Source of the DNA: an uncultured Verrucomicrobia subdivision 3 bacterium
GTDB lineage: Bacteria; Verrucomicrobiota; Verrucomicrobiia; Limisphaerales; UBA11358
Direction of reading: 5' to 3'
DNA: 64,000 nucleotides
NCBI GenBank assembly: GCA_903878805.1
Contig: CAIRJF010000011.1
Coordinates: 1 to 64,000 of the forward strand
Shown here in pieces: positions 11,572 through 44,520 of the stretch. Each line of letters begins with the position of its first letter. The stretch's first letter is position 1. The notes below the pieces were generated by a model. It searched no databases, was not told where the DNA came from, and was given only the letters and a program-made list of their open reading frames with translations. Made by a program: the position numbers and the translations under genes.

Positions 11572-11589
11572 GCTAAAATAAAATTACGC

Positions 11590-11627
11590 AACGGCGTCCA
11601 ATGAAAATTGGACGCCGTTTTTATTTC
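11590..11627 (+). terminator. Intrinsic terminator after rpoC
   Basis: AACGGCGTCCAAT (11590-11602) and ATTGGACGCCGTT (11607-11619) form a perfect 13-bp stem with a GAAA tetraloop, followed by a T-rich tract. It lies between rpoC and the convergent pseudouridine synthase gene. This is the clearest factor-independent terminator in the first half of the window. Confidence 0.93.
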
Positions 11628-11640
11628 CCCAAAAAAGCTG

Positions 11641-15167: not shown

Positions 15168-15297
15168 TACAGATAAATGTCGAACTGGAAGGGTATTCAG
15201 AAATGCGTTTGGGGCAATTCAATTTAGTTCTCGCACTTGAACATTTATTTTCATCGTTCTGCTTGGCAAAGACGCGCGCAAACGGTTAGCTAACAGG

Positions 15298-16665
15298 ATG
15301 CAATCGGTTCTCAATTACCTGACGCAAAATCAAGACCGCTTTGTGGCGGAACTATGCGACTACCTGCGCTTCGCCAGCGTCTCGGCGCAGCCGCAGCACA
15401 AAAAAGATTTGCTCGCCTGCGCGAAATGGCTGTTAGCGCATTGCCGGAAAATCGGGCTGGACGCGCGGCTTTGTCCGACGGCGGGACATCCCATTGTCAT
15501 CGCCAAAACGCGGCGCGCAAATAATTCCGCCAAGCCGCACTTCATGGTCTATGGCCATTACGATGTGCAGCCGCCGGAGCCGTTGGACTTGTGGAAGTCG
15601 CCGCCGTTTGAGCCGCGCATCGTCGGGAAAAATCTTTTTGCGCGCGGCAGCACGGACAACAAGGGACAGAACTTTGCGCACTTGAAAGCAGTTGAGGCCT
15701 ACATCAAAACTGGCACGCCACTGCCTTGCGACCTGACGTTCGTGCTGGAGGGTGAAGAGGAAGTCGGCAGCAAAAATCTTTCCACGTTTCTCAAGGCGCA
15801 TCGCCAGGAACTCGCGTGTGAAGCCATCGTGGTTTCCGACACGGGCATGCCCGCGCCGCAACATCCGGCGCTGACCTATGCGCTGCGCGGTATCATCGCG
15901 TTTGAAATCACGCTGCACGGACCGGCGCGGGATCTGCACTCCGGCATTTTTGGCGGTGCAGTTGAAAATCCGGCAATGGCCTTGAGCCAATTGCTCGCGA
16001 AAGTGCGCGATGAAAATGGCCGCGTGAAAATCCCCGGCTTTTACAATGGCGTTGCGCCGCTCTCAAAATACGAGCGCGAACAGATTCGGCGCTATCCACT
16101 TTCCGACGCGGGCTTGAAGAAACTTATCGGCGCACCGCAGTTGTTTGGAGAAAAAGGTTTTACCGCGACGGAGCAGCGCAGTTCACGGCCGACGTTCGAG
16201 ATCAACGGCCTGACCAGCGGCTATCAGGGCGAAGGCAGCAAAACGATTGTGCCATCATGGGCGCGGGCAAAAGTCACCTGCCGCTTGGTGCCAAATCAAA
16301 AGCCGGCGCACGTTCGCAAAATTGTCTGCGCATGGCTCAAAAAAAATTGTCCGCCGTCGGTGCGTATGGAAATTTCCGCCGGTCACGGTGCGGAGGCGTA
16401 TCTGGTATCGCCGACAAGCAAGCCGGCTCAAGCGGCGTTGTGCGCGCTGGAAAAAGCTTTTGGCACGAAGCCGATTTTGATGCGCGAGGGCGGCTCGATT
16501 CCGATTGTAAACGAGTTCAAAAAAGTTCTCGGCGCGGACACGCTGCTACTGGGCATTGGTTTGCCAGACGACAACGCGCATTCGCCGAACGAAAAATTTA
16601 ATCTGGACTGCTTCGTCAACGGTCAACGCATGAGCGCATTTTTGTGGAAGGAGTTGACCCGGTAG
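15298..16665 (+). CDS. M20-family dipeptidase/peptidase
   Basis: The 455-residue protein is an M20 metallopeptidase with two zinc ions. It shows the motif GHYDVQPPEP around residues 87-96, GSTDNKGQN, the catalytic EGEEEVGS and the later ligand Asp in VSDTGMP. The dimerisation domain has the typical DLHSGIFGGAVENP. The set fits the M20 dipeptidase subgroup often annotated as peptidase or CNDP-like. It is expected to be cytoplasmic because it lacks a signal peptide. Its neighbour across the divergent promoter region is also a peptidase, suggesting a peptide-turnover locus. Confidence 0.9.
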   Translation: MQSVLNYLTQNQDRFVAELCDYLRFASVSAQPQHKKDLLACAKWLLAHCRKIGLDARLCPTAGHPIVIAKTRRANNSAKPHFMVYGHYDVQPPEPLDLWKSPPFEPRIVGKNLFARGSTDNKGQNFAHLKAVEAYIKTGTPLPCDLTFVLEGEEEVGSKNLSTFLKAHRQELACEAIVVSDTGMPAPQHPALTYALRGIIAFEITLHGPARDLHSGIFGGAVENPAMALSQLLAKVRDENGRVKIPGFYNGVAPLSKYEREQIRRYPLSDAGLKKLIGAPQLFGEKGFTATEQRSSRPTFEINGLTSGYQGEGSKTIVPSWARAKVTCRLVPNQKPAHVRKIVCAWLKKNCPPSVRMEISAGHGAEAYLVSPTSKPAQAALCALEKAFGTKPILMREGGSIPIVNEFKKVLGADTLLLGIGLPDDNAHSPNEKFNLDCFVNGQRMSAFLWKELTR

Positions 16666-16702
16666 AATTCATTAAAATCTGCTCTCATGGCGCGAGTGGA
16701 AG

Positions 16703-17710
16703 TCATTTGTCCATGCCATAGACCAGAATCTTGAAAGTTCCGGGGATGATTTTGCCGCGCTTTTGGCCGGGGGCGGGTGCTTCAAATTTTGCGGAGGCCA
16801 GATAAATTTTATGCGTCATTGGATCAATGGCCATCGTGCGTGCGCTCTTCTCGGTTTTCAAAGTCTGCACCACGGTTAGCGTGTCACCGTCTTCATGCGC
16901 AATCGTCACCGTGCCGTCGCCGCAGGAGGCGAAGGCAAGCTGCGTGCCGGGATCAAACGCGTTGGCGTCCACGCCGTCGCCGATGGGGACAGTCGCCAGC
17001 ACTTTGCCGCTCGCGCTATCGAGCATGGCCATCATTTGGTTGTCGCAGCCAAGAAACAGCCGGTGGTTTTTTTCATCGAGCGCTATCCCGGAAGCCGCCT
17101 CGCCGGGCGCAATCGGCCAGCGATGAATAATGGCATGAGTTTTCGCATCAATGACGGCGACTGCGTTTTGATCTTCAAGATTGTCAAAAACCAGTCCGGC
17201 GGCGGCATCGCACTCCGCGAATTCTGGCCGTCCGCCGAGCGGAATGGTGGTGACGACCTTGCCTGACTTGGCGTCAATCACTGTCGCCGATTCGCCATGA
17301 CCGTTGAACGTGTAAAATTCCTGTCGCCCCGCATCGTAAAGCATGGAATCCGGTCCCGCGCCCGTATCCACCTTGGAAATAATTTGCAGCGTTTTCAGGT
17401 CAAAGATGGCGGCCTTGTTTTCCTTGCCGCAAGTGACCAGGCCGCGTCCCAGTTCCGGCGCGACGGCGACGCCGTGAACGCCCGCAAGATTGGTGATTTC
17501 ACCCGCAACCGTGTCCGTCGTCAAATCCACGACCACAACTTTCGTGCCGCGCGAAACATAGAGCCGGTGTGCCGTCGCATCCACCGAGAGATAATCCCAG
17601 CCGGTGTTGCCGCCCAGCGGGATTTCCTTGATGAAATGATACGTCCCGGCGGCATTGGCAAAGACGGTTGCCGCAAATAAAAACAGTCCAGTCAAAAGAA
17701 CTTTTTTCAT
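16703..17710 (-). CDS. Secreted YncE-like beta-propeller protein
   Basis: The product has an N-terminal signal peptide (MKKVLLTGLFLFAATVFANA) followed by WD/YVTN-type repeats typical of YncE-like seven-bladed propellers, for example YLSVDATAHRLYVSRGTKVV, ATVIDAKSGKVVTTIPLGG and KVLATVPIGD. I chose the ATG at 17710 because it begins the signal peptide; an upstream TTG at 17728 would add six residues. These proteins are periplasmic and often have no defined activity. The gene lies 24 bases downstream of yhbY on the same strand. Confidence 0.85.
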   Translation of the reverse strand: MKKVLLTGLFLFAATVFANAAGTYHFIKEIPLGGNTGWDYLSVDATAHRLYVSRGTKVVVVDLTTDTVAGEITNLAGVHGVAVAPELGRGLVTCGKENKAAIFDLKTLQIISKVDTGAGPDSMLYDAGRQEFYTFNGHGESATVIDAKSGKVVTTIPLGGRPEFAECDAAAGLVFDNLEDQNAVAVIDAKTHAIIHRWPIAPGEAASGIALDEKNHRLFLGCDNQMMAMLDSASGKVLATVPIGDGVDANAFDPGTQLAFASCGDGTVTIAHEDGDTLTVVQTLKTEKSARTMAIDPMTHKIYLASAKFEAPAPGQKRGKIIPGTFKILVYGMDK

Positions 17711-17734
17711 GGTTTTTGAATTACGCAATGTCGG

Positions 17735-18031
17735 TCAGTCGCCCGTAACCGTCGTGTCCACCGGTTTTGGCCGGTGCAACACCATCACGTTGCCGACGCG
17801 CATGACGAGATGGCTGGAAGTTTTTTCCGCAAGCAAGGGCGCCAGCGTTTTCTTGTCTTCTTTGAACTCCGCGAATTTTATTTTCACCAGTTCGTGCCGC
17901 GACAATTCCTCGGACACCGTGCGAATGAAACCTTCGCTCAAGCCCGCCTTGCCGATTTTCAACGTGGCGTCCATGAGCTGCGCCGCCGCCTTGAATTTGC
18001 GGATTTGGGAATTGGCCAGTGGTTCGAGCAT
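17735..18031 (-). CDS. yhbY: YhbY-family ribosome-assembly RNA-binding protein
   Basis: The 98-residue protein is a single CRM domain, as in E. coli YhbY, which associates with pre-50S particles. Supporting segments are LMDATLKIGKAGLSEGFI at about 20-37, the loop that normally reads as a GxxG-like RNA-binding turn, and ELVKIKFAEF followed by LVMRVGNVMVLHRPKP. Length matches the family. It probably forms a short operon with the propeller protein gene downstream. Confidence 0.88.
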   Translation of the reverse strand: MLEPLANSQIRKFKAAAQLMDATLKIGKAGLSEGFIRTVSEELSRHELVKIKFAEFKEDKKTLAPLLAEKTSSHLVMRVGNVMVLHRPKPVDTTVTGD

Positions 18032-18091
18032 TGGCCGCGCAGTCTAAATGCTTTCAGCCAAATTGCCAGAGACAATTCCCGGCGAAACGGT

Positions 18092-19531
18092 TCACCACGA
18101 ATAATGCACCGTGTAGGTCACGGTCTTCTCCTCGTCCGGCTTCACGGGGATGCGGAACTCAATGGTCTGCGCATCTTTCTTCTCGAAGTTGTCGGACTTG
18201 GCGGTGATGTTCCAATTGCTCCAGCGGTAAAGATGCTCCACGACGCGGATTTCCACGGCGTCGGTTTTTTTGCGGTTGCGTAATTTGATTTCAAACGTTT
18301 CATCAATCCACTTTTCGCTCGTGTCCACGCGGAAATTCGTCTGCTTGCGTTCGCCGACCAGATCAAAGGAATTGCCCGTGGTCACGCGGATGGTCTCGTT
18401 GCGCGGCGTGTGATCAATGGTGTTCTCACCGACGAATTGCAACTGCCCATCGCTGTCGCGACGATAGAAGCGCAGCTTGCCCGCAGGCAAAGCGATGCCG
18501 AGCTGATTGGTCTCAGCGTTCTTGAACTCGCGTTGGACGATGATTTTCTTGTTGTCGCTCTGGCCGTAACCTTGGTCGTAGTTCAGGCCGTAGAATTGGT
18601 AGCCGGTCGCACCGTCATAAACGTAAATCGTGGGCGCATACATTTTTTCGGCATGAACAAATTCTACCTGTTTCGTCTCGTGGTCGTGCAACGTGGTCGG
18701 GCGCGCGATGGAATAGAGATGAAATTCATCGAAGGCTTTTTCGGTGACAGCGGGCGCGGCAGCTTCGTCGTAAGCCATGGCCGCCTTAAGCATTCTCACT
18801 CCGCCCATCGGAGCCACAATTGGAGGCTGGATTTTATTCACGTCACCCGCGAGCAATTTTATTTTTGCGTTATCAAACGTTTTGCCGGAATTGTTGTTCA
18901 TCGTAATCCAGCCGACGAGGTCGCAGTAATCACCTTTCTCCGGCGAGACGAGATTGTAACTCGCGCTCCAATCAAAGCCGCCGGTGATGTAGCCGACTTC
19001 CGCATCGAACGCGCCGGGGTGGTCGGATTGCAGCAGCCAATTGAAGGCGGGCTTGAGAATCGTGTCGCTGCCGAGGTCAGGAAACAGCGGTTGGCCCGGT
19101 AAAGTGAATTGCAACTTGCCGTTCACCTCGATGATGGGCTGCGTGTTGCCGCCGCCAGGCACAAAACCGCTGCGGACAATTTTGCCGGGAATGAGTTCGG
19201 TGATTTGCGTGCTGTCCTTCATGCGGACATTTTGAAAATCAATCGTCTTGCCTTCAAACAGCGAGAGGAGCAGTTCCTGCGACACGGGATCGTTGCGGTA
19301 ATTTTGTTCGAGGATTTGCAGCGAATGTTTGCCCGCCGGATCGCGGAGAATCACGGAGTCCGGCTCCACCTGCGCCGTCGCACCGGAATACACGACGGCA
19401 TTCGCGCCGGATTTCAAATCCAGCGGCACGGTATCGCGCACGACGGCGAAATTCTGGTTGTAGATGGTCAGCGCAGGTTCGGCACTGGCGGCGAACGCGG
19501 CGGCGAGGAGCAGAGTGGCGATAGTTTTCAT
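18092..19531 (-). CDS. DUF4139-type secreted protein
   Basis: The 479-residue protein begins with a clear signal peptide (MKTIATLLLAAAFAASAEPA) and continues with the pattern LTIYNQNFAVVRDTVPLDL, which resembles the start of DUF4139 proteins. The second half has the beta-rich middle typical of that family (DWSASYNLV; GWITMNNNSGKTFDNAKIKLLAGDVN) and a C-terminal part that includes VEHLYRWSNWNITAKS. No enzymatic motif is visible and its function is unknown. It is probably periplasmic. It is transcribed away from proS across a 135-base spacer. Confidence 0.78.
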   Translation of the reverse strand: MKTIATLLLAAAFAASAEPALTIYNQNFAVVRDTVPLDLKSGANAVVYSGATAQVEPDSVILRDPAGKHSLQILEQNYRNDPVSQELLLSLFEGKTIDFQNVRMKDSTQITELIPGKIVRSGFVPGGGNTQPIIEVNGKLQFTLPGQPLFPDLGSDTILKPAFNWLLQSDHPGAFDAEVGYITGGFDWSASYNLVSPEKGDYCDLVGWITMNNNSGKTFDNAKIKLLAGDVNKIQPPIVAPMGGVRMLKAAMAYDEAAAPAVTEKAFDEFHLYSIARPTTLHDHETKQVEFVHAEKMYAPTIYVYDGATGYQFYGLNYDQGYGQSDNKKIIVQREFKNAETNQLGIALPAGKLRFYRRDSDGQLQFVGENTIDHTPRNETIRVTTGNSFDLVGERKQTNFRVDTSEKWIDETFEIKLRNRKKTDAVEIRVVEHLYRWSNWNITAKSDNFEKKDAQTIEFRIPVKPDEEKTVTYTVHYSW

Positions 19532-33632: not shown

Positions 33633-34295
33633 GTGATTTTTCCAAAGTGGACAAACAGTTTGCCGTTGGTGCTGCTCGTAGGAGCGGCACTGGCTGGCGT
33701 CGGCGTGGCGACGGGCGTGACGGTTTATCTCACGCCCAAATACACCCGCGCCGGTTATCAGCCGGTGCAGCCGGTTCCGTTCTCGCACAAGATTCACGCG
33801 GGTCAATTGGGCGTGGATTGCCGCTATTGTCATAACGGCGTGGAAAAATCCTGGTTCTCAAATCTCCCCGGTGCGTCCACCTGCATGAATTGTCATAATC
33901 AGGTGTTGAAGGACGATCCGCGTCTGGCCATCGTCCGCGACAGCGCGGCGAACAATACGCCGATTCCGTGGGTGCAGGTTCACAAGGTGCCGGATTACGT
34001 TTATTTCAACCACTCGGTTCACGTCACGCGCGGCATCAGTTGCGTGGAATGTCATGGACGCGTGGATCAGATGGATGAAGTCAAACACGCGAAATCTTTG
34101 AGCATGAGTTTCTGCCTGAACTGCCATCGCGATCCGGCGGCGTATATCCGCCCGCCCGACAAGGTCACGAAGCTGGACTGGCAGTGGAGCACGAATGCCG
34201 TGGAAGCCGAACATTTGCAGGAAGTGAACGGAAAGAAGTTTGTCCACGATTGGAAAGTGGAATCGCTGCAAAGCTGCTCGGCCTGTCACCGTTAA
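33633..34295 (+). CDS. actA: Alternative complex III subunit ActA (pentaheme cytochrome c)
   Basis: ActA is the multihaem cytochrome subunit of alternative complex III (quinol:cytochrome c oxidoreductase). The 220-residue protein has an N-terminal membrane anchor/signal (LPLVLLVGAALAGVGVATG) and five CXXCH haem motifs: CRYCH, CMNCH, CVECH, CLNCH and CSACH. It starts at GTG and is joined directly to actB, which starts one base after its stop. The haem count and gene order are typical of ACIII. Confidence 0.95.
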   Translation: MIFPKWTNSLPLVLLVGAALAGVGVATGVTVYLTPKYTRAGYQPVQPVPFSHKIHAGQLGVDCRYCHNGVEKSWFSNLPGASTCMNCHNQVLKDDPRLAIVRDSAANNTPIPWVQVHKVPDYVYFNHSVHVTRGISCVECHGRVDQMDEVKHAKSLSMSFCLNCHRDPAAYIRPPDKVTKLDWQWSTNAVEAEHLQEVNGKKFVHDWKVESLQSCSACHR

Positions 34296-37200
34296 ATGAA
34301 TTCAAACCCGAACAATTCTACACCCGTCACCGGCCGCCGTTACTGGCGCAGTCTGGATGAACTGGCCGACCAGCCGGAGTTCAAGGACTGGCTGCACCGC
34401 GAATTTCCCGTGGGCGCGAGCGAATTGGTTGAGGATGGTCAGAGCCGCCGGAATTTTCTGAAGATCATGTCGGCGTCGTTCGCGTTCGCCGGCATCGCGA
34501 CACTCGGCGCGGGCTGCCGTCGCCCCGAAGAACATCTTGAACCTTACGGCAAACAGCCGGAGAATTATACTTACGGCGACGCGCAATATTTTGCGACCGC
34601 CATGCCCACGCGCACCGGGGCTGTTCCGCTCGTCGTCAAATCTTACGAAGGTCGTCCGGTAAAAATCGAGGGCAACGCGCTGTTCCCCGGCAGCAACGGC
34701 AGCACCGACCGCTACGCGCAGGCTTCCATTCTCGACCTTTACGACGTTGATCGTGCGAAAAAGTTCAAGCACGAAGGCAAAGAAGTTTCGCGCGAAGACG
34801 CGTTGGGTTTCCTCGACGAACTCTCCAAGAAATTCGCGGCGAACTCCGGCGAAGGTCTGGCGTTCCTCGCCGAAAGCAGCACGTCGCCATCGCGCGCGCG
34901 TCTGCAAGGCATCATCGCCAGCAAGTTTCCGAAATCCAAGTGGTTCACCTACGACGCGATTGATTCCGCCATCCATCAGCGCGCCGCGACGCAGGCGTTT
35001 GGTCAATCGGTGAAGCCAGTGTTCCATTACGACAAGGCGAAAGTTATTTTGTCGTTGGATGCGGATTTTCTCGGTGGCGAAGATGACGCGCATAATCACA
35101 TCCGCAAATTTGCCGCAAGCCGCAAAGCCGGTGACGGCATGAGCCGGCTTTACGCGGTGGAATCATTGTTCACTTTGACGGGCGCGAGTGCGGATCATCG
35201 CTTGCGGCTGACCGCTTCGTCGGTCGGGAAAGTGGCGGCGGAAATTTTGGCGGAAGTGAACGGCGGCCCGGCGTCGCTTTCCGCGTGGATTGCGGAATGC
35301 GCCAAAGATTTGGTCGCGAATCGCGGGCAGGTTCTCGTCGTGGCCGGCCAGCGTCAGCCGATTGAAGTGCATTTGCTCGCTTACGCCATCAATTCCGCGC
35401 TCGGCGCGATTGGCAACACGGTCGAACTGTTTCAGACAAACGCCGTGGTCACCGGCTTGGAAGGTTTCGATCTGGATGCAATCGACACGCTGGTGGTTCT
35501 CGGCGGCAATCCGGTTTACCATTTGACCGCAACGGCAAAGCCGAAGAATGTTGTTCGCCTGGGCTACTACGAAGATGAGACGGCGCAAAAGTGCGACTGG
35601 AATTTTCCGGCGGCGCATTATCTCGAATCATGGAGCGACGCCACGACCGGCGACGGAACCGTGGTTGCTGTGCAGCCGTTGATTCAGCCCTTGTTTGGCG
35701 GCTTGCCGGAATTGGAATTTCTGGCGCGCGTCGCTGGCGAGTCGCCGACCAGCGCCCACGAAATCGTGCGCGCCACGTTTGGCGGTTCGGACGAAGAGTG
35801 GAAGAAATTTTTGTTCAACGGTTTTGCCAACAGCTCGGCGAGCAAATCAGAAACGCTATCGTTTCAGGCGGCTGTGCCGGCGTTTCAATCTGTCGCCACT
35901 TCCGGCACAAATCTCGAAGTTGTTTTTTTCCGCGATTCCAAAGTGGACGATGGTCGTTATGCCAACAACGGCTGGATGCAGGAGTTGCCCGATCCGGTCA
36001 CGAAGATGACGTGGGACAACGCCGTGCTCATCAGTCGCAAGACGGCGCGCGAACTCGGCGTGGCGAACGGCGACGTCGTGGAAATTTCGTTGAACGGCAA
36101 AACGGTTTCCGGGCCGATCTGGACGCAGCCGGGCATGGCGGATTATTCGCTCGGCCTCGCGCTCGGTTACGGTCGCGAAAAAGCCGGTCGCGTCGGCAAC
36201 GGTGTCGGCTTCAACGCGTATAAAATTTTCTCCGGCAAATATATTGAGACCGGCGCGACGATCAAAAAGACCGGCGCGACTTATGTGCTCGCTTGCACGC
36301 AGCATCATTGGTCAATGGAAGGCCGCCCGGCGGTGCGCGAGGCGAACCTCGAAGAATTCATCAAAGAACCGACCTTTGCGCAGGAAAAATTTCATGGCGT
36401 CGAGCCGCCCGTCGTCCAGTCGCTTTATGTGAACCCGCTCGACGAGGCGAAGAAGACCGCGTTGCATCAATGGGGCATGACGGTGGATTTGAACGCTTGC
36501 GTCGGCTGCGGCACTTGCGTCGTCGCGTGCCAAAGCGAGAACAACATTCCGATTGTCGGCAAGGATCAGGTGTTGCGCGGCCGCGAGATGCACTGGATGC
36601 GCATTGACCGTTATTTTACCAGCGATCCAAAACGCAAACACAACGCGAGCCGTTTTGATTTGTCGGCGGACATGAACCAGACGGACGAGAAGCAGCAGTA
36701 TGCCGAGTGGATTGACGATGTGCAGGCGGTCAACCAGCCGATGCTCTGCCAGCAGTGCGAATCCGCGCCGTGCGAAAACGTGTGCCCCGTGGCCGCGACC
36801 GTCCACGATCAGGAAGGTTTGAACGTGATGGCGTATAACCGTTGCATCGGCACGCGCTATTGCTCGAACAATTGTCCTTACAAAGTCCGCCGTTTTAATT
36901 TCCTCGATTACAACAAGCGTCCGTTGACGGAACTCAAAGGCACTTTTTATTCCACGACGCTTACGCACAAGACGGACGGCGTGCCGGACATTTTGCGCTG
37001 GTGGAAAGACCCGAACAGCGGCATGCGCACGGAAGACGAATGGGACTTGATCAAGTTGAGCAAGAATCCTGACGTGACGGTCCGTATGCGCGGCGTGATG
37101 GAGAAATGCACTTACTGCACCCAGCGCATCGAGCACGCAAAAATTTCGCAGAAGGCCAAGGCGGGCGCGAGCGACAACGTGCGTTTGTCCGAAGCGGCGG

Positions 37201-37463
37201 GGACGATTCCAAAAACCGCGTGCCAGCAGGCATGTCCGGCGGGCGCGATCACGTTCGGCGATGTCAGCGACCCGAACAGCTCGGTATCGAAATCAAAATT
37301 GTCGCCGCTGAATTACTCCGTCCTCGGCGAACTGCTCACGAAGCCGCGCACGACGTATCTCGCGCGCGTCCGCAACCCGAATCCCGCGATGCCGGATTAT
37401 CACGATCCGTTTAGCACGGAGGAATTTGAGAGCCAGAGTCTCACCCCGAAAGGAAACAGCTAA
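34296..37463 (+). CDS. actB: Alternative complex III subunit ActB (molybdopterin-like and iron-sulfur)
   Basis: ActB is the large periplasmic iron-sulfur subunit of ACIII. The 1055-residue protein has a twin-arginine signal with SRRNFLKIM at about 50-58 and a lipobox-like GAGC. A molybdopterin-oxidoreductase-like region follows (about 85-700), which in ACIII binds no molybdenum. The C-terminal ferredoxin-like domain has the clusters CVGCGTCVVACQ, CQQCESAPCENVCP, CIGTRYCSNNCP and CTYC...CQQACPAG. The third group lacks one Cys (Thr in its place), which fits one [3Fe-4S] and three [4Fe-4S] clusters. Confidence 0.95.
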   Translation: MNSNPNNSTPVTGRRYWRSLDELADQPEFKDWLHREFPVGASELVEDGQSRRNFLKIMSASFAFAGIATLGAGCRRPEEHLEPYGKQPENYTYGDAQYFATAMPTRTGAVPLVVKSYEGRPVKIEGNALFPGSNGSTDRYAQASILDLYDVDRAKKFKHEGKEVSREDALGFLDELSKKFAANSGEGLAFLAESSTSPSRARLQGIIASKFPKSKWFTYDAIDSAIHQRAATQAFGQSVKPVFHYDKAKVILSLDADFLGGEDDAHNHIRKFAASRKAGDGMSRLYAVESLFTLTGASADHRLRLTASSVGKVAAEILAEVNGGPASLSAWIAECAKDLVANRGQVLVVAGQRQPIEVHLLAYAINSALGAIGNTVELFQTNAVVTGLEGFDLDAIDTLVVLGGNPVYHLTATAKPKNVVRLGYYEDETAQKCDWNFPAAHYLESWSDATTGDGTVVAVQPLIQPLFGGLPELEFLARVAGESPTSAHEIVRATFGGSDEEWKKFLFNGFANSSASKSETLSFQAAVPAFQSVATSGTNLEVVFFRDSKVDDGRYANNGWMQELPDPVTKMTWDNAVLISRKTARELGVANGDVVEISLNGKTVSGPIWTQPGMADYSLGLALGYGREKAGRVGNGVGFNAYKIFSGKYIETGATIKKTGATYVLACTQHHWSMEGRPAVREANLEEFIKEPTFAQEKFHGVEPPVVQSLYVNPLDEAKKTALHQWGMTVDLNACVGCGTCVVACQSENNIPIVGKDQVLRGREMHWMRIDRYFTSDPKRKHNASRFDLSADMNQTDEKQQYAEWIDDVQAVNQPMLCQQCESAPCENVCPVAATVHDQEGLNVMAYNRCIGTRYCSNNCPYKVRRFNFLDYNKRPLTELKGTFYSTTLTHKTDGVPDILRWWKDPNSGMRTEDEWDLIKLSKNPDVTVRMRGVMEKCTYCTQRIEHAKISQKAKAGASDNVRLSEAAGTIPKTACQQACPAGAITFGDVSDPNSSVSKSKLSPLNYSVLGELLTKPRTTYLARVRNPNPAMPDYHDPFSTEEFESQSLTPKGNS

Positions 37464-38897
37464 ATGGCTGAAGCAGTGAACATCGAAGAACTGAAACGGC
37501 TCGCGCCACCGGCGGAGTTGCAACGTGCGCCCGTTGTCGAGGGCAAGCCGAGTCTCGGTGCGCTTACGGACAAACTGTCAGCTTTCGCCGAAGGCAAGAC
37601 GCCGCTGTGGTGGTGGATTTTGTTCCTGCCCGCCGCGTTCGCCGCGACGGTGATTTTCCCGACGTGTTTGTTTTATCAAGTGTTCACCGGAGTCGGCGTG
37701 TGGGGCAATAACCATCCGGTGATGTGGGGCTTGGACATCGTGAATTTCATCTGGTGGGTCGGTGTCGCGCACGCCGGCACTTTGATTTCTGCGCTGCTGT
37801 TTTTGACGAAGCAGCACTGGCGCACCACGATTGGCCGCATGGCCGAGGCGATGACGGTTTTCTCCGTGATGATGGCGGGACTTTATCCGGCCATTCACGT
37901 TGGTCGCGCATGGTTTGATTGGTTCATGTTTCCCGTGCCGAACTCAAATGGCAACTGGCCGCAGTTCAAATCACCGCTGATGTGGGACGTGTTCGCGGTG
38001 AACACCTATCTCGTCGTGTCCTCGCTGTTCTGGTTCATGGGCATGATTCCCGATTTTGCCGTGCTGCGCGACCGCGCGGTGGGGCGCATTCGCAAAACTA
38101 TTTTTAGCGCGTTAGCGATGGGCTGGACCGGCTCGGCGCGGCAATGGCACAATTACGAAAAAGCCTACGTCGTTCTTTGCGGCCTCTGCACACTGCTCGT
38201 GTTCACCGTGAGTTCCATCGTCGGTCTGGACTTTTGCACGTCGCAGATTGCGGGCTGGCACGCGACGATTTTCCCGCTTTACTTCGTCATCGGCGCGGTC
38301 TTCTGCGGTTTCGGCATGATGCTGGTGATTTTGATTCCGCTGCGCAAATGGTGCGGACTGGAAGGCGTCATCACGATGGCGCACATGGACAAAGTGGCGA
38401 AGCTCGCGCTCGTCAGTGGCCTAATCATTGACTACATCTACTTGCAGGAATTTTTCATCGCGTGGTATAGCGGCGACCCCTACGAACGCTGGGTGTTCGG
38501 CCATCGCTTGTTTGGTCACACATATTTGTATCTCGGCTGGGCGCTCATCGGCATCAACGTCTGCGTGACGCAACTGCTGTGGTTCAAAAAAATCCGCTCG
38601 AACCTGCTTGCGCTTTTTATTATCGGCGTGCTGATCAACTGCGGCATGTGGTGCGAACGCTTCGTCATCGTCGTCGGCTCGCTGTATCAGGAATTTCTCC
38701 CGGCGAACTGGGGCAAATACATGCCGACGATCTGGGACATCGGACTTTACATCGGCACGCTCGGCGCGTTCTTCATGCTGTATCTGCTGTTCGTGAAATT
38801 TCTGCCGATGATCGCAATTTCCGAAGTCAAAGGCGTGATGCCCGAAGCCGACCCGCATCACAAGCTTGGCGGTGCCAAGAACGGAGGCCATTCATGA
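37464..38897 (+). CDS. actC: Alternative complex III subunit ActC (NrfD-like quinol-binding)
   Basis: ActC is a polytopic membrane protein of the NrfD/PsrC family that holds a quinol-binding site and takes part in proton translocation. The 477-residue protein has about ten hydrophobic helices beginning near residue 50 (LWWWILFLPAAFAATVIFPT), with WWVGVAHAGTLISALLFL, GLYPAIHVGRAWFDWFMFP and FMGMIPDFAVLRDRA, as in other ActC sequences. It overlaps actD by ATGA. Confidence 0.95.
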   Translation: MAEAVNIEELKRLAPPAELQRAPVVEGKPSLGALTDKLSAFAEGKTPLWWWILFLPAAFAATVIFPTCLFYQVFTGVGVWGNNHPVMWGLDIVNFIWWVGVAHAGTLISALLFLTKQHWRTTIGRMAEAMTVFSVMMAGLYPAIHVGRAWFDWFMFPVPNSNGNWPQFKSPLMWDVFAVNTYLVVSSLFWFMGMIPDFAVLRDRAVGRIRKTIFSALAMGWTGSARQWHNYEKAYVVLCGLCTLLVFTVSSIVGLDFCTSQIAGWHATIFPLYFVIGAVFCGFGMMLVILIPLRKWCGLEGVITMAHMDKVAKLALVSGLIIDYIYLQEFFIAWYSGDPYERWVFGHRLFGHTYLYLGWALIGINVCVTQLLWFKKIRSNLLALFIIGVLINCGMWCERFVIVVGSLYQEFLPANWGKYMPTIWDIGLYIGTLGAFFMLYLLFVKFLPMIAISEVKGVMPEADPHHKLGGAKNGGHS

Positions 38898-39433
38898 GCG
38901 AAAAGATTTACGGCCTGATGGCGGAATTTGATTCGCCAGCGGCGATTTTACAGGCGGCGGAAAAAATCCGCGACGCTGGCTACCGTCGCTGGGACGCGTT
39001 CACGCCGTTCCCGATTCACGGCATGGACAAAGTCATGAAACTTGGCAACTCGCTCGTCGGCTGGGTTTCGCTCGCGGGCGGCGCGTTCATGTTTTCGCAA
39101 ATCTTCGGCCTGATCTGGTTTTGCAACGCGTTTGACTATCCGCTCATCGTTGGCGGCAAGCCGATGTTCAGCATGCCGATGACCTTTGTTCCCGCTTACA
39201 TCATGCTCATCATGGGCGGCGCGGTTGGTGCGCTCATCGGGATGCTCGGCCTCAACCAGCTTCCGCGTTTGCACCATCCGATCTTCGCCAAAAAACGGTT
39301 TGAACTCGTCTCGCGCGATAAATTTATTCTGCTCATCGGCGCGCAGGATGAAAAATTCTGCGTTACGGAAACCAAATCTTTTCTCGAATCCCTCGGCGGC
39401 GCGCACGTCGAAATTGTGGAGGACGTTGACTGA
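38894..39433 (+). CDS. actD: Alternative complex III subunit ActD (DUF3341)
   Basis: ActD is a small two-helix membrane subunit of ACIII with a cytoplasmic face. The 179-residue protein starts MSEKIYGLMAEFDSPAAIL and has YRRWDAFTPFPIHGMD, which is strongly conserved in DUF3341. Two membrane helices follow (about 60-83 and 98-120), then the loop RLHHPIFAKKRFE. I chose the ATG overlapping the actC stop over an earlier start because homology begins there. It overlaps actE by one base (TGATG). Confidence 0.93.
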   Translation: MSEKIYGLMAEFDSPAAILQAAEKIRDAGYRRWDAFTPFPIHGMDKVMKLGNSLVGWVSLAGGAFMFSQIFGLIWFCNAFDYPLIVGGKPMFSMPMTFVPAYIMLIMGGAVGALIGMLGLNQLPRLHHPIFAKKRFELVSRDKFILLIGAQDEKFCVTETKSFLESLGGAHVEIVEDVD

Positions 39434-40086
39434 TGCGCATCATCATTTCCATTTTATTGGTTGGCGCGGCCATCGGCGCGGCGGTGTTCGGAATGCTCGG
39501 CTTGCAGGGCGGCCTGATGCGCAAGCCGCCGTTTGAATTGTTCCCCGACATGGACCGCCAGGCTAAGTTACGTCCGCAGGAGCCGAATCATTTTTTTGCA
39601 AACGGCGTCAGCTCGCAATTGCCACCGGAAGGAACCGTCGCACGCAGTCAGCCGATTCCGACGGCGGACGGCGCGGTCTATCGCTTTGAAGATTCGTCGG
39701 TGAATACCGGCTGCGTCGTCGGCACAACAAATTTTGTGGAGACGAATCCGCTGGCCGTGAACGCGGAACTCATCCAGCGCGGCCGCGAGCGCTATGAAAT
39801 TTATTGCTCGCCCTGCCACGGGCGGCTTGGTGACGGCAACGGCATTACGAAAAAAATTGGCGTCATGCCTGCCGTCGCGAACCTGCACGACAAACGCATC
39901 GTCGAAATGGCCGATGGCGAAATTTTTAACACCATCACGCACGGCAAAGGTTTGATGGGCGCAGCCGGGCCACTCGTGCCGACCGAAGACCGCTGGGCAA
40001 TCATCGCCTATGTGCGCGCGTTGCAATTGAGCTGGCTGGGAGACAAGACTGATTTGCCGGCGGATCAGGCCGCTGCGCTGAAATAA
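39433..40086 (+). CDS. actE: Alternative complex III subunit ActE (monoheme cytochrome c)
   Basis: ActE is the monohaem cytochrome c of ACIII, a likely exit point for electrons. The 217-residue protein has an N-terminal hydrophobic anchor (ISILLVGAAIGAAVFGMLG) without a lipobox, so it may be held by an uncleaved helix. One CXXCH motif (CSPCHG) follows in YEIYCSPCHGRLGDGNG, with an axial Met probably in HGKGLMGAAGP. MDRQAKLRPQEPN is typical of ActE. It is three bases from actF. Confidence 0.93.
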   Translation: MRIIISILLVGAAIGAAVFGMLGLQGGLMRKPPFELFPDMDRQAKLRPQEPNHFFANGVSSQLPPEGTVARSQPIPTADGAVYRFEDSSVNTGCVVGTTNFVETNPLAVNAELIQRGRERYEIYCSPCHGRLGDGNGITKKIGVMPAVANLHDKRIVEMADGEIFNTITHGKGLMGAAGPLVPTEDRWAIIAYVRALQLSWLGDKTDLPADQAAALK

Positions 40087-40089
40087 AAT

Positions 40090-41328
40090 ATGAGCAGCAA
40101 AAACACAACTCATTTGCCGCCGCTGGACTTGTCCGGCTGGAGTAAGCTGCCCGCCGTGTTGATGGTTATTGGCGGTGTGCTGTCCATCGCGGGACTCGCC
40201 ATTCGACCGGCGGAGTTCGGGTTTTCCTGGCTGCTGGCGTTTATGTTTTATTACAGCATCGCGCTCGGCGCGCTGTTCATCGTCATGGTGCATCACCTGA
40301 CCGACGCCGGCTGGTCGGTCGGCATCCGCCGGTTCAGCGAACACCTCGCTTCGCTGCTGTTCCCGTGGCTGGCAATTTTATTTCTACCGATTTTAATTTT
40401 GTCGAAGCAAATTTATTCCTGGCTCACGCTGAATCCCGATACGAACAATTTGGTCGCCGCCAAGCTGCCGGTGTTCACCTGCACCGGCTTCATCGTCGCG
40501 TCGGCGATTTTCTTCGGCGTCTGGTGGCTGCTCACGTCGCAATTGAGCCGCTGGTCGCTCGAACAGGACCAGACCGGCGCGGCGGAATGCACGCGCAAGC
40601 TGCGTTTTTATTCCGGCTGGGGCATCGTCGCCTTCGCGCTGACGCTCTCGGCGTCAGGCGTGCTGTGGATGAAGTCCCTGCAATACCAGTGGTTTTCCGC
40701 AATGCACGGCGTCTATTTCTTCTCCGGCTGCGCGTGGGCGGGACTGGCGACGGTTTATGTCATTTCGGCGGTTCTGCTGCGGCAGGGAACCCTCGCGTCA
40801 GTGCTGCAAAAAAATTATTTTTATTTCATCGGCGTGCTGCTGCTAGGGTTCACGCTCCTCTCGGCTTACACCGAGTTCGCGCAATATTTTGTCGTCTGGA
40901 ACGCCAACGTGCCGGAAGAGACTTTCTGGTATCTCATCCGCGAACGCGGCAACTGGTGGACGTTGAGCCTGATTTTGATTTTTGGAAAATGCTTTATACC
41001 GTTCTTCATCTTGCTGCCGGAAAAAATCAAGATGAATTTCAAAGTCATCATCCCGCTCTGCCTGTGGATCTGGCTGATGCACGCGCTCGATCTCGCGTTC
41101 AACATTCTGCCTGCGCGCCACAACAACGGCTACCCGCTCCATTGGCTCTGGCTGCCGCTTGGCTGCCTAATGCTCATGGGTGGATTTCTTGCGACCATTT
41201 TCGTGAAAAAATTTAACGCGCACCCGCCGTATCCGCAGCGCGACCCGCGCCTGCTCGAGGCGATGGGTGTGAGTCAGAATGTGGTTCGCGATCTCGTGGA
41301 TGCGCAAACCAGCGGAGGTTCCCGATGA
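40090..41328 (+). CDS. actF: Alternative complex III subunit ActF (NrfD-like)
   Basis: ActF is the second NrfD-like membrane subunit of ACIII, shorter than ActC and without an obvious quinone site. The 412-residue protein has about ten helices, for example WLLAFMFYYSIALGALFIVM and LFPWLAILFLPILIL. It ends with a soluble tail, HPPYPQRDPRLLEAMG, which is conserved in ActF proteins. It overlaps the next small gene by four bases, continuing the operon. Confidence 0.93.
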   Translation: MSSKNTTHLPPLDLSGWSKLPAVLMVIGGVLSIAGLAIRPAEFGFSWLLAFMFYYSIALGALFIVMVHHLTDAGWSVGIRRFSEHLASLLFPWLAILFLPILILSKQIYSWLTLNPDTNNLVAAKLPVFTCTGFIVASAIFFGVWWLLTSQLSRWSLEQDQTGAAECTRKLRFYSGWGIVAFALTLSASGVLWMKSLQYQWFSAMHGVYFFSGCAWAGLATVYVISAVLLRQGTLASVLQKNYFYFIGVLLLGFTLLSAYTEFAQYFVVWNANVPEETFWYLIRERGNWWTLSLILIFGKCFIPFFILLPEKIKMNFKVIIPLCLWIWLMHALDLAFNILPARHNNGYPLHWLWLPLGCLMLMGGFLATIFVKKFNAHPPYPQRDPRLLEAMGVSQNVVRDLVDAQTSGGSR

Positions 41329-41678
41329 ATAATGTCACCATCAACCGCGCTTCCGGGGCTGCCATTGGCCTTATTGGTGCCGCCGTGCTGTTTGCCCTCA
41401 TCACCGTGGCCGTAAAACTCGCCTTGCCTGTGACCGCTATTGATGCTGACCGTGCCGCCGAACGAAGCAAGGCGCTCGCTGAAATCCGCGCCACGGAGGA
41501 AATTTCTTTGAGCCATGCAGCAGTGATTGACGTCAAGCGCGGTATCGTGCGCCTGCCAATTGAAACGGCGATGGCGCTCGCCGCGCAGAAATGGGCGAAC
41601 CCGTCCGCTGCTCGCGCCGACTTGAACCGCCGCGAGGAAAAATCCGTCGCGCCCGTCAAAACCGAATCTTTTGAATGA
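41325..41678 (+). CDS. Small membrane-anchored protein between actF and the CcoN-like gene
   Basis: The 117-residue protein has one N-terminal transmembrane helix (about 10-38) and then a soluble, charged helix-rich part. The segment RATEEISLSHAAVIDVKRGI is followed by VRLPIETAMALAAQKW. I do not recognise a named family. The gene overlaps actF and the CcoN-like gene by four bases on each side, so it is made with the complex. A role as an assembly factor or small subunit linking ACIII to the downstream module is inferred from context only. Confidence 0.75.
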   Translation: MNNVTINRASGAAIGLIGAAVLFALITVAVKLALPVTAIDADRAAERSKALAEIRATEEISLSHAAVIDVKRGIVRLPIETAMALAAQKWANPSAARADLNRREEKSVAPVKTESFE

Positions 41679-43120
41679 ACCCGACCGAGAATAAAACCTC
41701 TTGCGAGAGCGAGATCAATGACTCGTTGCGCGTGCCGCTCCTCGCGCTGTTTGGGGGCGCGGCGCTGTGGCTCGTCGGCGGCCTGCTGCTCGGCCTGATT
41801 GCCGGCATCAAATTTCACGCGCCGGATTTTCTCGGCGGCTGCCCGCTGTTCACCTACGGCCGCGTTGCCCCGGCGGCGAATGACCTCTTGCTTTACGGCT
41901 TTTGCATTCCCGCCGCGCTCGGCGTGATGCTCTGGATTTTTGCGCGTTTGAGCCAGTCTCCGCTTGCGTTGCCGCTCGTGCCGGTGGTCGCCGCACATCT
42001 CTGGCATCTTGGAGTTTTCATCGGCACGGCGGGAATTTTGCTTGGCGGCAGCACCGGCCACCTCTGGCTCGAATACCCGCGCGCGGCGGCGGTTCTGCTA
42101 TTCGCAGCCTTCCTGCTCATCGCCGTTTCGGCAGCGGCAACGTTCGGCTGGCGTCAGGAAAAAAGTCTTTATCCCTCGCACTGGTTTCTGTTTGCTGCGC
42201 TGCTGTGGTTCCCGTGGATTTATTCCACCGCCAACCTGTTCCTCAACGCCCACCAGCTTCCGCGCGGTGTCGTGCAACCAATCATCTGTTGGTGGTTTGC
42301 GAGCAATCTGATTTTCGTCTGGCTTGGGCTCGTGGGCGTCGGTATCGCGTTTTATTTTCTGCCAAAATTTTCCGGGCGACCGCTCGCCAGTTCCGGCTAC
42401 GCGCTGCTCGGCTTCCTGTCGCTGGTTTTTTTCGGAACTTGGTGCGGGATTCCACCGGGTGCGCCGGTTCCCGCGTGGCTGCCGGCTTTGAGCGGCGTGG
42501 CGGCGCTGTTGACGATTATTCCGCTGCTGGCGATTTTGATTGTCGCCGTAAAAACCGTCTGCGGTGCGTCTGTTTCCTGCAACGGCGGGCCGTTCTGCTT
42601 CATTAAAATTGGTATGATCAGCTTCATTGTTGCGGGCGGCCTTTACATCGCCGCCGCGTGCCCGCAATACAGCCGAGTGCTGGAATTCACTTGGTTCGGC
42701 GCGGCGCAAGTGCAACTGCAACTGCTAGGTTTCACGGCAATGATTTTGTTCGGCGCCATTTATTTCCTGCTGCCGCAGGTGATGGGCAGGCCGCTGCCGT
42801 TGGCAAAATTCACCAAGCTGCATTTCTTCCTTTCGGTGGCGGGCGCGCTGTTGTTGGTCGTGCCGCTGGTTGCCGCCGGCATTGTGCAGGGCGAAAAACT
42901 TGCCGACGCCAGTGTTGCCTTTGCCGATGCCAATTCCGCCGCCTTGAAATTTCTGCGTATCAGCACACTCGGCCAACTGGCTCTTCTGGCAGGGTCGCTG
43001 TTGTTTGCCGCTAATATTTTTGCCATGACGATTCAGTGGAAACTGGGCATTGCCAGGACGGTGATTGACTACATCAAGTCGCCACTCGCAACCGCGAAAA
43101 CCTCGGAGGTGAAATCGTGA
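41675..43120 (+). CDS. CcoN-like membrane protein lacking all haem and copper ligands
   Basis: The 481-residue protein has the multi-helix fold and landmark sequences of CcoN, the catalytic subunit of cbb3 cytochrome oxidase: FTYGRVAP, ICWWFASN, YFLPKFSGRPL, AAQVQLQLLGF and LPQVMGRPL. Alignment by eye to Pseudomonas CcoN shows every metal ligand replaced. The low-spin haem His60 becomes Ala68 and CuB His207 becomes Ser210. CuB His257/258 become Pro260/261, and His347/349 (haem b3 and haem b) become Gln345/Gln347. The cross-linked Tyr is a Gly. It should not reduce oxygen; a structural or quinone/proton role is possible. Confidence 0.85.
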   Translation: MNPTENKTSCESEINDSLRVPLLALFGGAALWLVGGLLLGLIAGIKFHAPDFLGGCPLFTYGRVAPAANDLLLYGFCIPAALGVMLWIFARLSQSPLALPLVPVVAAHLWHLGVFIGTAGILLGGSTGHLWLEYPRAAAVLLFAAFLLIAVSAAATFGWRQEKSLYPSHWFLFAALLWFPWIYSTANLFLNAHQLPRGVVQPIICWWFASNLIFVWLGLVGVGIAFYFLPKFSGRPLASSGYALLGFLSLVFFGTWCGIPPGAPVPAWLPALSGVAALLTIIPLLAILIVAVKTVCGASVSCNGGPFCFIKIGMISFIVAGGLYIAAACPQYSRVLEFTWFGAAQVQLQLLGFTAMILFGAIYFLLPQVMGRPLPLAKFTKLHFFLSVAGALLLVVPLVAAGIVQGEKLADASVAFADANSAALKFLRISTLGQLALLAGSLLFAANIFAMTIQWKLGIARTVIDYIKSPLATAKTSEVKS

Positions 43121-43914
43121 AGACCGGCATCTCTGTTTTCGTGGCGACCTTCGTGGCGCTTGGTGCATCGTGGTGCGGCTTTGTGCTCGCGCCGTTATTG
43201 CAACTTGGCGGGGCGAAACAGACCGTCGTTCTGCAAACGACCGACAACTGGCCGCTCCAGCGCACCGGCGCAGCGACGCTTGGCCTGCAAGTTTACCGCG
43301 CGAACGGCTGCGCCGCGTGTCACACGGAACTGGTGCGGCAGACCGGCGTCGCCTTTGAGGTTTTGTTGACGAGCGCCGGAAATAATCCCGCAGCCGTGAG
43401 CAATCTGATTTCCAACCTCAAACTAGCCGGTCTGACTAAAGAAGAGGCTGACGACGCAAATGCAAAAATTACCGCTATCGGCGGCAAAGTTGAAACGCGC
43501 CTCACCGCGACCGGTGCGGACATTGCGCGCGGCTGGGGTTTGCGCCAGAGCGTCGCGGCGGATTATCTCTATGACCAGCCCGTGCAACTCGGCAGCCTCC
43601 GCGCCGGGCCGGATTTGGCGAACATCGGCGTTCGCGCGCCGGATTTGAACTGGCAGTTGCTGCATCTTTACGCGCCGAAAGCGGTCAATCCCAATTCCAC
43701 AATGCCGTCATTCAAATTTCTTTTTGAAGTCCGTAAAATCGGGAATGCGCCTGCGCCGGACGCTTTGCATTTGCCCAAGGAATTTGCCGCCGCCGACGGT
43801 TACGAAATCGTGCCGAAGCCGGAGGCGATCGAGCTGGCCGCGTATCTTTTGAGTCTCAAGGCCAACCAGCCGCTTTACGAAGCGCCGTTTTCACCCGTCA
43901 CCGCTGCCAAATAA
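43117..43914 (+). CDS. CcoO-like monoheme cytochrome c with an insert
   Basis: The 265-residue protein resembles CcoO, the membrane-anchored cytochrome of cbb3 oxidases. It has an N-terminal helix (about 3-28), GLQVYRANGCAACHTELVRQ with one CXXCH, YLYDQPVQLGSLRAGPDLAN, and NPNSTMPSFKFLF carrying the axial Met. Between the haem motif and ARGWGLRQSVAADYLYD it has about 50 extra residues (LTKEEADDANAKITAIGGKV region) that are not in classical CcoO. It overlaps the CcoN-like gene by four bases and is followed directly by the next cytochrome gene. Confidence 0.85.
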   Translation: MKTGISVFVATFVALGASWCGFVLAPLLQLGGAKQTVVLQTTDNWPLQRTGAATLGLQVYRANGCAACHTELVRQTGVAFEVLLTSAGNNPAAVSNLISNLKLAGLTKEEADDANAKITAIGGKVETRLTATGADIARGWGLRQSVAADYLYDQPVQLGSLRAGPDLANIGVRAPDLNWQLLHLYAPKAVNPNSTMPSFKFLFEVRKIGNAPAPDALHLPKEFAAADGYEIVPKPEAIELAAYLLSLKANQPLYEAPFSPVTAAK

Positions 43915-44520
43915 ATGAGCGACGAAAATAAATCCTGTTCCGTCCCGCCGCCCGGCGAACCGACCGCCACGCCTTCCACCGCGCCGATGTGGATCATTGT
44001 CGTGACGCTGATTTTGCTTTTCATCGGCGGCATTTATTTCGACCGCAACAGCGGCTGGTTCAATGCCAAGGTTTATTCACCCTACGCCAGCGCGGAAAAC
44101 CTTGACGCCTGCCAGCCGCAGTCCGGCGCGGCGGCGTTCATCGCGCGCGGCAAAAAAACTTATGAAGCTGTCTGCGGCGTTTGCCACGGGCCGGACGGTC
44201 TGGGCAAACCTGGGCAGGCACCCCCGCTGGCCGGTTCCGAATGGGTGATCGCCAAAGGCTTCAACCGCCTGGCGCATATTCCCCTGATGGGCGTTGCCGG
44301 TTCGATCCAAGTTTCCGGCAAGGACTGGAACATGAATATGGCCGCAATGGGCGCAGCGCTGCCGGATGAAGATCTTGCCGCCGTGCTGACTTACATTCGC
44401 AATTCCTGGGGCAACAAGGCATCGTCTGTCGCCGGCGATGACATCAAGCACATCCGCGCCAAACTGCCGGCTGGTGCGCAGCCGATGACGCATGACATGC
44501 TGATGCAGATGCCGGAATAA
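43915..44520 (+). CDS. Membrane-anchored monoheme cytochrome c
   Basis: The 201-residue protein has an N-terminal cytoplasmic tail, one membrane helix (about 25-42) and a periplasmic cytochrome c domain with the single haem motif CGVCHG (about residue 84) and axial Met in MNMAAMGAALPDEDLA. It fills the CcoP place of the operon but has one haem rather than two. It may carry electrons from ActE or the CcoO-like subunit to another oxidase. It is the last gene of the operon, with the next gene convergent. Confidence 0.85.
   Translation: MSDENKSCSVPPPGEPTATPSTAPMWIIVVTLILLFIGGIYFDRNSGWFNAKVYSPYASAENLDACQPQSGAAAFIARGKKTYEAVCGVCHGPDGLGKPGQAPPLAGSEWVIAKGFNRLAHIPLMGVAGSIQVSGKDWNMNMAAMGAALPDEDLAAVLTYIRNSWGNKASSVAGDDIKHIRAKLPAGAQPMTHDMLMQMPE

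Follow-up and report, generated by a model that had tools for sequence, protein, structure and literature searches.

A haem-copper oxidase core without metal ligands in the alternative complex III operon of Verrucomicrobiota: a candidate membrane scaffold

Can the core subunit of a haem-copper oxidase, the textbook case of strictly conserved metal ligands, be kept in a respiratory operon once these ligands are gone? The question is raised by a 64,000-nucleotide stretch (the window) from an uncultured Verrucomicrobia subdivision 3 bacterium (assembly GCA_903878805.1, 2.29 Mb in 40 contigs; contig CAIRJF010000011.1, positions 1 to 64,000), in which a first-pass annotation had pointed to an alternative complex III (ACIII) operon containing a homologue of the cbb3 oxidase subunit CcoN, here called N. 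The genes are arranged as actA-actB-actC-actD-actE-actF-X-N-O-P (33633-44520), on the + strand throughout and with short overlaps or gaps between neighbours (Table 1), and N is thus encoded in one operon with actABCDEF, as an ACIII accessory module would be. We think it rather probable that N is a dead C-family oxidase core, kept as a membrane scaffold for the haem-c proteins O and P beside ACIII.

Window N matched the Pfam COX1 family at 2.2e-35, and its best solved relative was Pseudomonas stutzeri CcoN (3mk7, E 2.5e-20). The TIGR00780 ccoN model matched it at 4.3e-31 with 108 bits, below the cut-off of 583 bits that a ligand-bearing ACIII-linked N, at 253 bits, does not reach either. An AlphaFold2 model of the protein (pLDDT 84.9, pTM 0.88) had CcoN chains as its best PDB matches, with a TM-score of 0.81 to 3mk7 at 22% identity (E ~1e-17), and on this model N is predicted to have the haem-copper oxidase subunit I fold. 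We read the ligand columns in three alignments (a pairwise HMMER alignment, a MAFFT alignment that included relatives and canonical CcoNO fusions, and an alignment of 219 proteins), in P. stutzeri CcoN numbering and with what we take, from the structure of that protein, to be the histidines of haem b (H60, H347), haem b3 (H345) and CuB (H207, H257, H258). All three agreed that window N has none of the six histidines and that the cross-linked tyrosine, Y251, is gone; the residues listed in the first-pass annotation (Ala68, Ser210, Pro260/Pro261, Gln345/Gln347, and Gly for the Tyr) were exact. Its claim that every ligand is replaced is right for window N and does not extend to the same operon slot in other families, where all the ligands are present.

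Ligand loss in window N is not a matter of chance, since N of the same genus share it. Among 25 same-genus N in the ACIII slot, 24 lacked all six histidines (the N of locus L140 keeps a His at 347; codes in f, g, G and L denote the families, genera, genomes and loci of this analysis), and H60, Y251 and H257 were replaced by Ala, Gly and Pro in all 25. Seven more named relatives likewise had no His at the ligand places in the 219-protein alignment. That alignment, from which matches below 60 bits or shorter than 330 aa had been dropped, held 61 distinct N-like proteins with six His and the Tyr; ligand histidines numbered none in 90 proteins, one in 56, two in 9, three in 2 and five in 1. We then restricted the census to distinct N in the act slot, leaving out N shorter than 400 aa, 16 loci (mostly other CcoN types) and the canonical CcoNO fusion in L074. 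Of these 199 proteins, 45 kept all seven residues, 151 had two His or fewer (ligand-poor, as the term is used in the census and for column conservation) and 3 had three or five. The annotated tie to ACIII is general: act genes lay upstream of 195 of the 199 (149/151 ligand-poor, 43/45 full and 3/3 partial N). The gene is not the rare degenerate copy without conservation that the annotation had named as a refuting case. As for its spread, the window N query matched 57/59 near genomes, 173/196 of the order and 75/240 of a phylum sample (E<=0.001), and a ligand-bearing N query matched 263/335 genomes of the class; these counts are upper bounds, because canonical CcoNO fusions of 700 aa match too. 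Ten of the 13 named loci encoding N relatives are titled Verrucomicrobia subdivision 3 or Limisphaerales.

We considered and rejected the possibility of shifted ligand histidines. Window N has 7 His, three of which (H48, H111 and H169) were invariant among close relatives in a 13-row alignment, H111 lying within a helix. In the broader set of ligand-poor N, just one His was conserved at 75% or more (family-weighted), that at the place of P. stutzeri H384, and ligand-bearing N has it too. No substitute set appeared in either alignment, and the other refuting case foreseen in the annotation, histidines from elsewhere taking the ligand positions, was not seen in the three alignments. Lacking the residues that would hold haem b, haem b3 and CuB, window N should, judging from its sequence, neither reduce O2 nor carry electrons. 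Alternatively, N might still bind one haem b or another cofactor and relay electrons. H111, invariant in the window's close relatives, may act there as a single ligand; three of the five aligned N of family f29 retain both haem b ligands, H60 and H347, while having lost those of CuB and haem b3; N of f26 and f31 keep H60, and N of f27 keeps a His at 258. This relay fits f29 best. In window N the haem b pair is missing and no widely kept pair stands in for it, and we regard a residual cofactor as unlikely overall.

N could instead be a decaying gene, translated only since it lies inside an essential operon. As the first-pass annotation had it, the open reading frame is intact and overlaps its neighbours; each overlap is of 4 bases. 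In 14 pairs from the window's clade (85–90% N identity; the window itself is in none, and some pairs repeat one contig), the ratio of nonsynonymous to synonymous substitutions (dN/dS) of N was 0.096–0.187 at dS 0.46–0.75, compared with 0.077–0.250 for ActF, 0.123–0.328 for O and 0.058–0.395 for P. N is under purifying selection in this clade, and neither a broken frame nor relaxed selection, the marks of a pseudogene, was found. Structural columns are kept as well: of 119 columns invariant (>=95%) in ligand-bearing N, 45 stay at least 75% the same across the 151 ligand-poor N (family-weighted). The ligand columns are scattered in the same set, H60 being mostly Ala (0.48), Y251 replaced by Gly at 0.69, and the others below 0.35 for any letter. 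The 151 proteins all come from long open frames, N shorter than 400 aa having been dropped beforehand, and the loss is spread through the order, followed by speciation with the operon retained.

Other data go in the direction of decay. N has long branches in its tree and, once the ligands are lost, outpaces the neighbouring genes by far; indeed, pairs of full and ligand-poor relatives show their largest fall in identity in N, meaning that N speeds up most. A pair in f35 g47 was 94% identical in ActC, 91% in ActF, 69% in O, 66% in P and 48% in N, and a pair in f25 was 93% identical in ActC and 60% in N, whereas three full-full pairs within families (f25, f28 and f7) had 75–76% in N and 84–93% in ActC. 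Two loci of f32 g38 (L265 in G472 and L266 in G136) encode an N of only ~350 aa with its ligands lost, and G136 has no ActD match; in that genus the short N may be real decay. For N at large we hold decay to be improbable, and the fold (TM-score 0.81), the intact frame, a dN/dS of 0.10–0.19 and the kept columns bear out the annotated view of a conserved fold without a metal site rather than a decayed gene.

The first-pass annotation had expected a single conserved ligand-free clade, and here the data led elsewhere. A quick N tree with the ligand columns dropped (161 rows; most same-genus rows and the named loci were omitted, as were N shorter than 400 aa) does suggest a single origin, since it needs only 3 state changes and groups 114 ligand-poor rows with a support of 91 in the Shimodaira–Hasegawa-like approximate likelihood-ratio test (SH-aLRT; the branch was not starred). 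The same tree could mean that the two forms of N, ligand-poor and full, are ancient paralogues or cassettes exchanged horizontally, instead of products of loss in place, and one genome (G365) indeed has several N-like genes. The ActC tree gave another picture. With 100 rows it required 17 state changes, at least 10 of them forced by well-supported branches; shuffled labels gave 19.3, and 32 of 500 shuffles were as low. A repeat with 93 rows, in which an N missing any of the seven residues counted as lost (partial N included), had a minimum of 16 changes, and under irreversible loss with midpoint rooting it had 27 losses; collapsing branches below 80, 90 and 95 lowered the number to 23, 20 and 14. 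This repeat left out seven loci with long ActC branches, among them the window locus, whose row formed an odd long branch in the 100-row tree.

We also compared N trees (57 rows) in which f7, f25, f35 or f28 was held together with the tree from a free quick search. The held trees were likelier, by +36, +59, +65 and +34 log-likelihood units, and approximately unbiased (AU) tests gave p-AU of 0.86, 0.974, 0.99 and 0.817; a p above 0.05 is not proof of a clade, and the held trees are merely likelier than that of the quick search. Since the held trees are likelier and the AU tests do not reject them, the 114-row ligand-poor group is best read as long-branch attraction. The single origin suggested by the quick N tree is thus disfavoured by the ActC trees and the AU tests, and the annotated clade gives way to groupings, favoured by the likelihoods, in which ligand-poor N stands with the ligand-bearing N of the family it belongs to. 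Two species of f35 g218 speak further against paralogues or swapped cassettes, as they show different early losses: in the order H60, H347, H345, H207, H257, H258, Y251, one reads HHHRHHY and the other HHHHSHC. From these states the CuB and Tyr residues appear to have been lost first in this genus; each state comes from one assembly, so that sequencing error is possible, and from stop-to-stop frames whose lengths may be overlong. Another locus, L215, encodes an N that reads YHHHYYV at these places. We therefore give the paralogue or cassette scenario little credence. Ligand-bearing ACIII-linked N was probably the ancestral state, ligand-poor N seems on these sequences to have arisen from it repeatedly and in place, and the most likely course of events is that an ACIII-linked oxidase was repeatedly turned into a subunit lacking its metal sites, not that there is one odd clade.

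What would such a subunit do? N would once have been the core of a C-family (cbb3-like) oxygen reductase, part of an ACIII-linked N-O-P oxidase, and would now be a cofactor-free membrane platform that keeps O and P, both haem-c proteins, beside ACIII. Electrons would pass from menaquinol through ACIII (ActB/ActA/ActE) to the haems of P and O and from there chiefly to CuA in an A-type oxidase; O and P would in this way extend the haem-c chain of ACIII, and the acceptor could also be a soluble carrier or NosZ. The haem motifs of the partners are consistent with this scaffold. Where N lacks any of the seven residues, 151 of the 153 distinct O have one CXXCH, as do 47/47 beside full N, and every P has at least one (158/158 and 51/51, respectively). 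A loose axial-Met pattern was present in 107/158 P beside N with missing residues and in 36/51 beside full N. In the O motif, Tyr directly precedes the second Cys in 45/47 O beside full N and in 36/153 beside the others, a sign that O has relaxed where it may face the oxidase.

Other terminal oxidases that could accept the electrons are present. Contig C29 of the window genome carries an A-type cox1 with all ligands (by eye), cox3, cox2 with the CuA motif CAQLCGGGH, ctaA and ctaB, and the genome also has cydA. In a set of 80 genomes (51 ligand-poor, 29 full), 50 of the 51 ligand-poor ones had a second COX1-family match at E<1e-90, and the remaining one, G050, had a weak COX1 match only, plus a bd oxidase. 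Among the 29 full-N genomes, N was the only COX1 match in G059 and G204, with no bd oxidase found, and in G299, which has two weak bd-family pieces as well; full N is a likely oxidase in these three, being the sole COX1 match there. Genomes with no match to another terminal oxidase were thus 2/29 of the ligand-bearing and 0/51 of the ligand-poor ones, too few for a contrast. We infer that N is haem-free, that it stands in a complex with ACIII and that electrons reach the other oxidase through O and P.

Several observations weigh against this scaffold. The loose axial-Met pattern was found in only 122/153 O beside N with missing residues (41/47 beside full N). O also loses identity where N is ligand-poor in f7 and f28 (in f7, 72% between full pairs and 51–56% between full and ligand-poor ones), and its dN/dS exceeds that of N; O may itself be relaxing. 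A cox1 like that of the window genome lay within 8 kb downstream of N on the same strand in only 25 of the 114 loci that extend more than 4.5 kb downstream (counted by eye); L061, a close relative of the window, is one of the 25, while the window genome has its cox genes on a different contig from N. By type of N, a nearby cox1 accompanied 4/23 full N, 21/86 ligand-poor or partial N and 0/5 of another CcoN type; 21/86 is no clear enrichment over 4/23, and we rejected the idea that a neighbouring cox marks ligand loss. Finally, N accompanies ACIII in most, not all, genomes: ActD was found in 278/335 genomes of the class, at E<1e-25 in 262, of which 253 had an N-family match and 9 had none (compared by hand; some matches may be canonical CcoNO fusions).

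N might also have gained a new membrane function and feed ACIII through a proton or ion path or through a quinol site. N would be a large membrane subunit beside ActC and ActF, in both of which putative proton paths have been described (PMC5928083, in part), and a few polar residues are kept in ligand-poor N, namely (P. stutzeri numbering) R55 (0.92), E125 (0.82) and K228 (0.68). At the positions that we take to be those of the C-family K-channel the residues were replaced in ligand-poor N: Y223 by F (0.60), S240 by A (0.76) and Y237, which is lost, by Arg (0.35; Ser in the window). A proton path is disfavoured because of these replacements, and the scattered loss with its varied replacements is unlike selection for a single new site. 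We see little likelihood in a new function of this kind. The first-pass annotation had offered structural, quinone-binding and proton-conducting roles; the structural one is the best of these proposals, and the proton-conducting one loses ground with the K-channel positions.

The same slot is occupied in Methylacidiphilum-like methanotrophs by genes that have been published as an oxidase. Four g33 genomes each have 3–4 pmoA-family genes, and from pmoA and a nos insertion we infer that g33 is Methylacidiphilum. At the seven places, the four aligned N of g33 read S,V,F,E,S,H,S and the four of g203, in the same family, A,(T or V),Q,D,A,H,A; five of six ligand histidines and the Tyr are therefore gone in both, the sole His being at 258. 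G100 has the order actABCDEF-X-N-O-P-cox1-cox3-cox2, and the cox operon directly follows P in four g33 loci. Twelve genomes of this family had no ccoN-model match above 46 bits, whereas the three ligand-bearing ACIII-linked N in that search score 245–254; the absence of a ligand-bearing ccoN there rests on this score gap, because N of 245–254 bits also fail the 583-bit cut-off. In another locus, L087 of the methanotroph-like genome G130, which is one of the exceptions to act genes lying upstream of N, a nosZ/nosD cluster (10834-18140) lies between actF and N, N2O reductase thus sharing the ACIII operon; available parts of PMC11102522 describe a nos cluster in the same position for Methylacidiphilum caldifontis IT6.

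In excerpts from PMC6688271 the genes beside ACIII are called a cbb3 oxidase and linked to high O2 affinity, and in excerpts from PMC8498564 and PMC10205796 cbb3 is counted among three oxidase types; missing ligands are not mentioned in those portions of the three papers, nor in the titles and abstract openings of the open-licence PMC papers retrieved for ligand-free CcoN, ACIII-cbb3 and pseudo-oxidases. With one of seven residues kept, the methanotroph N beside ACIII is probably no oxidase. We hold with slightly less than even confidence the wider claim that, within one class, the ACIII-linked oxidase lost its active site independently 14–27 times (CuB and Tyr first in one genus caught early), that it was kept each time as a metal-free scaffold wiring ACIII through two haem-c proteins to acceptors such as aa3 or NosZ, and that the Methylacidiphilum cbb3 is such a dead form, reducing no oxygen.

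Compared with P. stutzeri CcoN (3mk7), window N has the same fold, the gene order N-O-P and a CcoO-like O with a haem-c motif; both haem-c partners of a cbb3 oxidase have counterparts downstream of N, in the FixO-like O and the cytochrome c P. CcoP is a dihaem protein, and window P is monohaem. Window N differs from CcoN in the missing ligands of haem b, haem b3 and CuB, the missing cross-linked Tyr and the changed K-channel places, and from canonical CcoN also in its score far under the ccoN cut-off and its location in an act operon. A C-type oxidase beside ACIII has been described in Opitutaceae and verrucomicrobial methanotrophs (PMC8498564, in part, citing Refojo 2010). The ligand-bearing form shares the operon slot and N subfamily with window N, but it keeps the seven residues (45/199 N) of which window N has none. 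The Methylacidiphilum 'cbb3' (PMC6688271, PMC8498564 and PMC11102522, each in part) is alike in its act-N-O-P slot and ligand-poor N, and unlike in that its N is more diverged and was published as an oxidase (PMC6688271). In the ACIII-aa3/caa3 supercomplexes of F. johnsoniae and R. marinus (PMC8552683, PMC5928083), electrons go from ACIII to an A-type oxidase via haem-c domains, as in the path proposed here; the accessible parts of both papers hold no mention of an N-O-P module. ActB1, the molybdoenzyme-like domain of ACIII, has no prosthetic group (PMC5928083, in part) and resembles N as an enzyme fold retained in a respiratory complex without its cofactor. It differs as a peripheral domain, N being a membrane oxidase core with recurrent loss; by analogy, N looks like the ActB1 principle carried into the membrane. 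If a subfamily did lose the ligands of its core repeatedly with operon and haem-c partners kept, the oxidase core would have a second, structural role, strong enough for selection to act on it alone, and annotation by itself would have named 'cbb3 oxidases' wrongly in many Verrucomicrobiota, among them the methanotrophs in which high O2 affinity was tied to that gene (PMC6688271, as excerpted). The species that have lost one or two ligands permit a direct test of the order of loss.

Table 1. Genes of the ACIII operon in the window and the codons of N that replace the ligand residues (P. stutzeri CcoN numbering for the residues replaced)
Feature	Coordinates	Strand	Basis
actA, pentahaem cytochrome c	33633..34295	+	Pfam cytochrome c7/c3 matches; five CXXCH
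actB, fused molybdoenzyme-like and ferredoxin-like ACIII subunit	34296..37463	+	Open reading frame and conserved gene order
actC, NrfD/PsrC-like membrane subunit	37464..38897	+	Pfam NrfD 1e-17
actD	38888..39433	+	Pfam ActD 3.5e-55
actE, monohaem cytochrome c	39433..40086	+	Pfam Cytochrome_CBB3 1.2e-12; one CXXCH
actF, second NrfD-like membrane subunit	40090..41328	+	Named from gene order; homologue at the same place in relatives
X, small protein between actF and N, 117 aa	41325..41678	+	Same-place homologue in many loci
N, predicted CcoN-fold protein without haem or Cu ligands, 481 aa	41675..43120	+	Sequence matches, alignments, AlphaFold2 model
N, Ala68 codon (place of haem b ligand H60)	41876..41878	+	Three alignments
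N, Ser210 codon (place of CuB ligand H207)	42302..42304	+	Three alignments
N, Gly254 codon (place of cross-linked Y251)	42434..42436	+	Three alignments
N, Pro260-Pro261 codons (place of CuB ligands H257/H258)	42452..42457	+	Three alignments; H258 aligned to a gap or P261
N, Gln345 codon (place of haem b3 ligand H345)	42707..42709	+	Three alignments
N, Gln347 codon (place of haem b ligand H347)	42713..42715	+	Three alignments
O, CcoO/FixO-like monohaem cytochrome c	43117..43914	+	Pfam FixO 6e-20; CAACH
P, monohaem cytochrome c with N-terminal hydrophobic stretch	43915..44520	+	Pfam Cytochrom_C 9.9e-13; CGVCH

The remaining genes of the operon were named as indicated in Table 1. The name actB was given from position and length and is putative, and actF had no match in the Pfam search. 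In window O the FixO match falls into two stretches, and a long additional segment separates CAACH from the remainder of it. Profile searches (Pfam and others) gave no convincing family for protein X, which carries an IVRLPIETAM-like motif similar to the RIVHIPIEEAM of methanotroph X; it is possibly a conserved small partner. Fourteen f26 g26 genomes (G079, G082, G085, G088 and ten more) have weak ActD matches only (~1e-9 to 1e-19) and no N match, perhaps an ACIII remnant or a diverged ACIII. In L091–L095 (f46 g80), a different CcoN-type gene with full ligands directly follows one for a ~600-aa protein with seven CXXCH, no other act gene being seen in the locus. Finally, the contig of L053, titled 'uncultured Rhodospirillales bacterium', carries act-N-O-P with an N 76% identical to window N, and is probably a mis-binned Verrucomicrobia contig.

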